The position numbers were made by a program, and so were the translations under genes. Source: a bacterium (lineage in GTDB: Bacteria; Patescibacteriota; Patescibacteriia; 2-12-FULL-60-25). From it: a stretch of DNA of 35,363 bases. The notes beneath the pieces are model-generated. The model saw only the letters and a list, made by a program, of their open reading frames with translations, searched no databases and had not been told where the DNA came from. Where the stretch lies: the NCBI GenBank assembly GCA_021806685.1, contig JAJZQU010000007.1, forward strand, positions 1 through 35,363, in the 5' to 3' direction. Of this stretch, positions 34,401 to 35,363 are shown in pieces. Numbering within the stretch: the stretch's first letter is position 1; each line of letters opens with the position of its first letter.

Positions 34401-35006
34401 TTAAGCTTTCTCAGCCTTCTTCTTTTTAGGTGCAGCCTTTTTCTTTTCAACCTTCTTAGGCGCTTCAATTTCAGCCTCAACCTTTACTGATTTGACCGTC
34501 TCAACAGGAGCGGCAGGAGCTAAGATCTTCAAGATGGCGTCCAGCTTGGCGTTAATAGCCTTAAATTGTTCCTTGTTTTGGTCAACGCCTTTGTTCTCAA
34601 AACTGTTGCTCTTAACCGGACCATCCTTGCCCATGCAGGGACGGCAATAAATGGGTTTTGAACCATTCGGACGAAAAGGCACTTCGCAGTCAACTCCGCA
34701 TTTGTCGCAAACAGCCTTAAACATGCGCTTTTCCTCGAACATTGGCCTTTCTGACCTGCCTCCGCCGTAGCTAGGTGCTCCACCATCTTCATCCCTTTTA
34801 AAGCAATTGCTGCAAAAAATAGGCCGATTGCCTGTCGGACGAAAAGGCACTTGGCAATCCTTGCCGCACTCGCTGCAGACTGCATCATGCATCATAGGAC
34901 GGCCAGAATCACGGCCGCCAGAACCCCTATCCCAGGGGCCCCTGTCTCCAAACTTCTTGCCATTGCCACGGCCGCCAGAACTGTTGCCTCGATGGGGGTT
35001 AAACAT
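34401..35006 (-). CDS. CxxC-x17-CxxC zinc-ribbon protein with RGG-like N-terminus
   Basis: A 201-residue protein. Residues 1-38 are rich in Arg, Gly and Ser (GGRGNGKKFGDRGPW, RGSGGRDSGR), like RNA-binding RGG tails. Two copies of the CxxC-x17-CxxC zinc domain follow: CSECGKDCQVPFRP...CSNC (about 44-68) and CDKCGVDCEVPFRP...CRPC (about 100-124). Each has 17 residues between the Cys pairs. A short helical piece (EQFKAINAKLDAILKILAP) may drive self-association, and the C-terminus is Lys/Ala-rich (EKKKAAPKKKKAEKA). The domain is common in Patescibacteria and related groups. Nucleic-acid binding is inferred from charge and the cold-shock neighbour. Confidence 0.85.
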   Translation of the reverse strand: MFNPHRGNSSGGRGNGKKFGDRGPWDRGSGGRDSGRPMMHDAVCSECGKDCQVPFRPTGNRPIFCSNCFKRDEDGGAPSYGGGRSERPMFEEKRMFKAVCDKCGVDCEVPFRPNGSKPIYCRPCMGKDGPVKSNSFENKGVDQNKEQFKAINAKLDAILKILAPAAPVETVKSVKVEAEIEAPKKVEKKKAAPKKKKAEKA

Positions 35007-35075: not shown

Positions 35076-35093
35076 GGGTTCGGACATTGTATC

Positions 35094-35119
35094 AAAAAAT
35101 GCCCATTCGGGCATTTTTT
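35094..35119 (-). terminator. Terminator (bidirectional) beside the partial tRNA copy
   Basis: AAAAAATGCCC-ATT-CGGGCATTTTTT (one unpaired base at the loop side). It lies four bases beyond the 20-bp copy of the tRNA 3' end, in the position expected for a tRNA terminator. Confidence 0.88.
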
Positions 35120-35122
35120 ATC

Positions 35123-35142
35123 TGGCTCCGAGGGTGGGGATC
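35123..35142 (-). repeat. 20-bp duplicate of the tRNA 3' end
   Basis: On the minus strand, GATCCCCACCCTCGGAGCCA, identical to the last 20 bases of the tRNA at 35296. The rest of the tRNA is missing, so this is a remnant, or an attachment-site-like direct repeat 173 bp from the intact copy. Confidence 0.9.
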
Positions 35143-35253
35143 TCACGTCGTCCCGCAGTACTGCGGGACTCCCACGAAAACCTTCTGGTTTTCGTGTGCT
35201 TTCCTCGACAAGTGAAAACTCCCGTTTTCACCCTTTCCCGTTCGATCCCCCAC
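35134..35253. repeat. Four-stem hairpin cassette between the tRNA 3'-end copies
   Basis: The outer arms GTGGGGATC (35134-35142) and GATCCCCCAC (35244-35253) enclose three perfect hairpins: GTCCCGCAGTACTGCGGGAC (35150-35169), CACGAAAACC-TTCT-GGTTTTCGTG (35173-35196) and GTGAAAAC-TCCC-GTTTTCAC (35212-35231). The left outer arm is part of the tRNA T-arm copy. The first hairpin differs at one base from 6216-6235. Confidence 0.88.
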
Positions 35254-35259
35254 AGATAT

Positions 35260-35294
35260 AAAAAATTACCTGCCAATATGGCAAGTAATTTTTT
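35260..35294 (-). terminator. Terminator of the tRNA gene
   Basis: AAAAAATTACCTGCC-AATAT-GGCAAGTAATTTTTT, one mismatch, right after the tRNA CCA end (35296-35298). Confidence 0.85.
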
Positions 35295-35295
35295 A

Positions 35296-35363
35296 TGGCT
35301 CCGAGGGTGGGGATCGAACCCACGACCAAAGGATTACATTTGTCCTAGCGTTTCCGCTGGGGA
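35296..35363 (-). tRNA. tRNA 3' half (tRNA-Asn-like), cut by window edge, possibly intron-containing
   Basis: On the minus strand the 3' end reads GTGGG-TTCGATC-CCCAC (T arm), CCTCGGA (acceptor strand), G (discriminator) and an encoded CCA. The variable loop is TGGTC-like. TAATCCTTT before it matches the 3' side of an Asn (GTT) anticodon arm, and G before CCA also fits Asn. The bases upstream (35337-35363) do not form a normal anticodon loop or D arm: the loop would have nine bases without U33, and the next stem is AGCG-GAAA-CGCT with a four-base loop. This fits the 3' end of a group I intron that finishes with G at 35337. If so, the 3' exon is 35296-35336. Thr (TGT) with an odd loop is the alternative. 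Confidence 0.7.

Follow-up and report, generated by a model that had tools for sequence, protein, structure and literature searches.

Is the half tRNA-Asn gene at the end of this contig a truncated remnant, or is it one side of a gene that is interrupted by an intron and may still supply the asparagine tRNA of the cell? The window, which is the whole stretch of DNA analysed (35,363 nucleotides), is the entire contig C22 of a 920-kb genome that is assembled in 61 contigs and is 85% complete. The analysis leaves us in very little doubt that tRNA-Asn(GUU) is split at U35/U36 by a 567-nt group I intron that would remove itself from the precursor and whose P1 loop encodes an HNH protein with a presumed role in homing. 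The features are listed in Table 1.

Table 1. Position of the split tRNA-Asn gene, its intron and neighbouring features on contigs C22 (the window) and C47 (locus L039)
Feature	Location	Strand	Remarks
tRNA-Asn(GUU) 3' exon, U36 to CCA, 41 nt	window 35296..35336	minus	equals positions 35-75 of the intact tRNA-Asn of G004 and G033
Group I intron, last 27 nt, terminal (omega) G at 35337	window 35337..35363	minus	remainder on contig C47 (L039 708-142, minus); 68-nt exact overlap
P9 hairpin, CCCAGCG-GAAA-CGCTAGG	window 35344..35361	minus	helix 11 of the consensus; 95.7% of cells paired, compensatory change in 5/7 pairs
Hairpin and T-run 3' of tRNA-Asn	window 35258..35295	minus	from the sequence; probably the transcription terminator of tRNA-Asn
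Structured element, ~130 nt, just behind the tRNA-Asn terminator	window 35123-35257	minus	fold z = -4.6 for 35121-35253
tRNA-Asn 5' exon, 34 nt, ending GGACUGU	L039 742-709	minus	TCCGAGGTAGCTCAGCGGTAGAGCAGAGGACTGT
Group I intron, 567 nt, between U35 and U36	L039 708-142	minus
HNH protein ORF, 108 aa, in the P1 loop	L039 677-351	minus	Pfam PF01844

The tRNA-Asn gene and its missing half

On the minus strand, positions 35336-35296 read TAATCCTTTGGTCGTGGGTTCGATCCCCACCCTCGGAGCCA, the part of tRNA-Asn that comprises T arm, acceptor strand and CCA; the motif AGCG-GAAA-CGCT of P9 is at 35358-35347, and the contig ends inside the intron at 35363. ARAGORN found no tRNA in the window and no Rfam match there reached the gathering score, as expected because the gene is both truncated and split. 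The terminal 68 nt of the window (35296-35363, minus) are 100% identical to positions 101-168 of contig C47, which continues beyond them, on the minus strand of L039, through a complete group I intron and into a tRNA 5' half. Rfam family RF00028 matches L039 417-149 over its full length (model 1-253) with 72.3 bits, where the gathering score is 50. The exons meet at CUGU^UAA, giving the anticodon GUU, and when joined they fold into a cloverleaf with a weak D arm. A continuous tRNA cloverleaf was ruled out, since ARAGORN found no tRNA in L039 or in the window.

The sequence-only reading of the window had taken the 3' half for tRNA-Asn, the junction G at 35337 for the last nucleotide of a group I intron and the GAAA-capped hairpin for its P9, and had predicted a 5' exon ending in GGACTGT and a G.U pair at P1. 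Extension of the sequence through C47, the check that it had proposed, bears this out: the predicted 5' exon is supplied by that contig, the group I core lies well within 1 kb, the hairpin is a covarying helix of the intron consensus, and the joined exons are identical to an intact tRNA-Asn of the same genus. This 75/75 identity, together with the fact that many relatives have this gene split in the same way, confirms that the observation is real and excludes chance.

The connection between the two contigs is the 68-nt identity, because the complete intron sits on C47 and the 3' flank beyond CCA differs between C47 and the window. The gene rpoD, upstream of C47, is also the upstream neighbour of intact tRNA-Asn loci in relatives, and a gene for a zinc-ribbon CxxC protein in the window (34401-35006, minus) resembles a gene found 3' of tRNA-Asn in several relatives. 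On account of this synteny on both sides, C47 and C22 are favoured as neighbours. The simplest reading would be a single locus for which two variants of the downstream side, both present in the population, were assembled, and two gene copies are a possible alternative.

Structure of the intron

For each of 13 genomes, one tRNA-Asn intron was parsed base by base. Every one has the break at CUGU^, a terminal G, a downstream guide GCAGC and a P1 of 4-6 bp with the U.G pair at the junction, and approximately 12 further introns from other searches agree on the splice signature (for one of them, L130, the 3' end was misplaced in the parsing). A consensus structure for P2-P9 was built from 10 aligned cores, with P7 added by hand; 96.2% of its cells are paired and 44 pairs show double (compensatory) changes, a result equalled by none of 500 shuffles, while versions in which the structure was slid along the alignment had 32-43% of cells paired. 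The core helices P3-P9 are thus present with covariation support, including P7, the guanosine site, which is itself invariant (GACUA/UAGUC) in the aligned cores. Helices 8 and 9 of the consensus, both of which covary, lie between P7 and the 3' strand of P3. Two extra helices in this position are a mark of subgroup IA, and introns of subgroup IC3 are not known to have them. Comparison by eye of the bases on the 5' side of the guide with UAAUCC gave no evident P10; this pairing is not universal in group I introns. A short tRNA-Asn intron of 199 nt with CUGU^ and GCAG was also seen in another relative (L110, G018:C7:25194-25467), where the RF00028 search had missed it.

Intact and split alleles in relatives

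When 57 relatives were searched with the joined exons, an uninterrupted tRNA-Asn identical at 75/75 nt was found in G004, of the same genus, and in G033, of the same family. The gene in G004 is, as judged by this comparison, the empty site of the intron. Six more genomes of the same genus (G001, G002, G003, G005, G006 and G008) have an intact tRNA-Asn with 89-97% identity, and G007, also of this genus, has an intact-length match with 84% identity over positions 6-75. The gene is split in G000, G009, G014, G018, G022, G029, G031 and G037. Both states occur within genus g14 (split in G037, intact in G021 and G033) and within genus g7 (split in G014 and G031, intact in G035).

No intact tRNA-Asn was found in the source genome at its 85% completeness, nor in six relatives with the split gene that are 98-100% complete (G014, G018, G037, G063, G072 and G081), in which the other tRNA-Asn matches that were checked are tRNAs for Lys, Phe or Met. 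G114 is the one relative in which a split tRNA-Asn is accompanied by an intact one. Because no intact tRNA-Asn was found with this exception, the ribozyme probably must work for the reading of AAC and AAU in most of these cells.

The HNH reading frame and its relatives

The ORF within the intron matches PF01844 with 22.7 bits against a cut-off of 21.4, and the HNH and zinc residues are invariant among its relatives over a wide divergence. Its nearest named relatives are from Candidatus Uhrbacteria and other Paceibacteria-type genomes. The reading frame passes through the guide sequence and P2, so that one stretch serves both as protein code and as splicing guide. The same arrangement, with the ORF present and the guide inside it, was found in G000, G029, G031, G037, G072 and G075; the ORF has an internal deletion in G022 and a frameshift in G114, and the intron is without an ORF in G089, G095, G100, G063 and G081. 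As in homing introns, an endonuclease ORF lies inside the intron and close relatives hold intronless alleles (G004, 75/75). The cycle of gain, decay and loss of homing introns is established, and the states of the ORF seen here by sequence comparison (intact, decayed, absent, empty site) fit such a cycle.

Of 240 genomes of the class, 22 carry a member of the HNH family. Among 16 of its loci that were examined, 12 have tRNA-Asn exons around the ORF and 2 lie 16-28 nt upstream of tRNA-Pro. At L070, L071 and L132 the HNH ORF is located immediately upstream of a tRNA-Asn having an ORF-less intron; this is the order seen in G063 and G081, and it is possibly a two-part (collaborative) arrangement. 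HNH relatives of the intron protein (L134, L135, L136, L137, L138, L139, L157 and L159) end within ~30 nt upstream of intact tRNAs or overlap their 5' end. Such free-standing relatives were seen at tRNA-Pro(UGG) in two cyanobacteria and two Patescibacteria, at tRNA-Arg in a Nitrospirae genome, at tRNA-Phe in Levyibacteriota, and at tRNAs of Nanoarchaeia (Glu) and Pacearchaeota.

We tentatively suggest, as an idea that is somewhat more apt to be wrong than right, that an HNH family specialised on tRNA genes, which stands alone at the 5' end of intact Pro, Arg, Phe and archaeal Glu tRNAs in Cyanobacteria, Nitrospirae, DPANN archaea and Patescibacteria, may have entered an intron specific to tRNA-Asn and settled in its P1 loop, so that the HNH coding sequence there overlaps the guide, and that the sole tRNA-Asn of many hosts thereby came to depend on a mobile ribozyme. 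Such a partnership would be previously undescribed.

Distribution and comparison with known introns

Matches to RF00028 were found in 49 of 115 relatives. The hosts of the intron loci that were fetched and read by eye were tRNA-Asn for the most part, tRNA-Phe, one initiator tRNA, and 23S rRNA or a host that could not be determined. An Asn tRNA had been thought an unusual host from the window alone, a view that does not hold, for it is the commonest host among these loci. The tRNA-Phe introns of the class lie between U33 and G34, with a guide matching GGACU or GGCCU (L044, L045, L046, L052, L053 and L055), and the group I intron in the initiator tRNA (L058, in G091) is also from this class.

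Group I introns in some tRNAs of circularised CPR genomes are mentioned in PMC8172020. A 2025 preprint by Nakagawa et al. (bioRxiv 2025.07.03.662931, cited in PMC12641178) reports group I introns in Patescibacteria tRNAs and, by its title, a novel tRNA-gene insertion site; to go by title and citation, its introns are like ours in phylum, intron kind and tRNA host. Group I introns in the tRNAs of Patescibacteria are thus already reported, and the tRNA-Asn intron joins that known kind. In Synechocystis, the product of the tRNA-fMet intron ORF, I-SspI, is not known to be an HNH enzyme. The cyanobacterial tRNA-fMet introns (Biniszkiewicz 1994 and Paquin 1997, as cited in PMC8450103 and PMC5733544) share with the present introns the position in the anticodon loop, the group I type, a sporadic distribution and an ORF in some members, whereas the tRNA host differs. 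Likewise, the introns of tRNA-Leu(UAA), tRNA-Ile(CAU) and tRNA-Arg(CCU) are of the anticodon-loop group I type and have the P7 sequence AGACUA...UAGUC, but the introns studied here are in the 35/36 site of tRNA-Asn and have two extra helices from P7 to the P3 3' strand and an HNH ORF. These tRNA-Leu(UAA) (cyanobacterial and plastid), Azoarcus tRNA-Ile(CAU) and Agrobacterium tRNA-Arg(CCU) introns belong to subgroup IC3. The group I introns of phages and of rRNA genes also have HNH homing endonucleases (reviewed in PMC3943268), which are similar in that the ORF lies in an intron loop and has spread sporadically; unlike them, the present family is tied to tRNA genes, either in the P1 loop or free-standing just upstream.

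Proposed mechanism and alternative explanations

With the exons, junction, covarying core, P1, ORF and empty sites in hand, and no second tRNA-Asn found, we infer splicing activity and DNA cleavage by the HNH protein as follows. The precursor tRNA-Asn would be transcribed with the intron included, and the intron would fold into its P2-P9 core, with the guide GCAG pairing with the 5' exon end CUGU to form P1 and place U.G at the splice site. Guanosine would then attack after U35, and the freed 5' exon would in turn attack behind the terminal G, which would ligate the exons and give a normal tRNA-Asn. The 108-aa HNH protein would cut intronless tRNA-Asn genes, into which the intron would be copied (homing).

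That the split gene has lost its function as a pseudogene or is an artefact of assembly, with a normal tRNA-Asn elsewhere in the genome, would be compatible with an assembly that is 85% complete in 61 contigs and with the coexistence of both forms in G114. It is nevertheless very improbable, for the exons are perfect (75/75), neither the core nor the HNH ORF is disrupted, the split gene is the only one found in six relatives of 98-100% completeness, and the same structure recurs in independent assemblies. An intron of the protein-spliced, archaeal bulge-helix-bulge type would share the anticodon-loop position, but the length of 567 nt, the complete group I core, the U.G pair of P1 and the terminal G leave this explanation with practically no chance.

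A more serious alternative is that the intron splices and is immobile, the HNH ORF being a relic or an RNA-acting maturase and the pattern of presence and absence resulting from inheritance and loss. The f1 introns form a loose cluster in the tree, and decayed and ORF-less copies exist, as would be expected in this case; the tree of intron cores is without resolution and gives no proof of horizontal transfer. We consider immobility unlikely all the same, given that an intact HNH motif is kept over a wide divergence, that split and intact alleles occur inside single genera, and that HNH relatives occur on their own next to uninterrupted tRNA genes, which have no intron in need of a maturase.

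A structured element behind tRNA and tmRNA genes

The core of the element that lies behind the tRNA-Asn terminator reads GAGGAAAG...CACGAAAACC-GAAG-GGTTTTCGTG...GACGTGAGA. Its 3' end repeats 20 nt of the tRNA-Asn tail exactly, and its 5' arm is the reverse complement of the T loop and stem of the tRNA. A model built from 8 copies recovered 31 copies, spread over 14 of 57 relatives, and among 240 genomes of the class 21 had matches; this model includes the tRNA-derived arms, so that the association with tRNAs is partly built in, and the core carries most of the signal. Nearly all copies that were fetched lie just downstream of a tRNA, and one lies behind tmRNA. In relatives, the core was found 3' of tRNA-Tyr, Gln, Glu, Ser, fMet, Ala, Arg, Leu, Ile, Thr, Gly, His, Lys and Cys. 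In most copies the 3' end repeats the tail of its own host, often whole to CCA and sometimes through the terminator (shuffles gave a mean of ~6 nt), and the 5' arm is often the reverse complement of the host T loop and stem. One core lies outside a tRNA, in what appears by eye to be a LepA-type gene (L188/L167, G010:C2:285120-285245), between 37-bp direct repeats of the target, and its 5' arm is the reverse complement of the repeat start.

No family in Rfam 15 matches the element; Rfam hits in 35080-35363 (ylbH, mir-1200 and a tmRNA tail) were rejected as far below their cut-offs. No clear cargo ORF of a mobile-element type was found between two tail elements in G002. This undescribed structure looks like a small element targeting tRNA 3' ends.

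Implications

Standard tRNA finders miss split genes such as this one, and the genomes that carry them seem to be without tRNA-Asn. The sole asparagine tRNA of several near-complete genomes would depend on a mobile ribozyme, which would tie the decoding of AAC and AAU to splicing. With split, decayed and empty alleles present inside single genera, the homing cycle of a tRNA intron can be put to the test. That one HNH family is associated with tRNA genes in both bacteria and archaea is relevant to the question of how endonucleases come to combine with introns.
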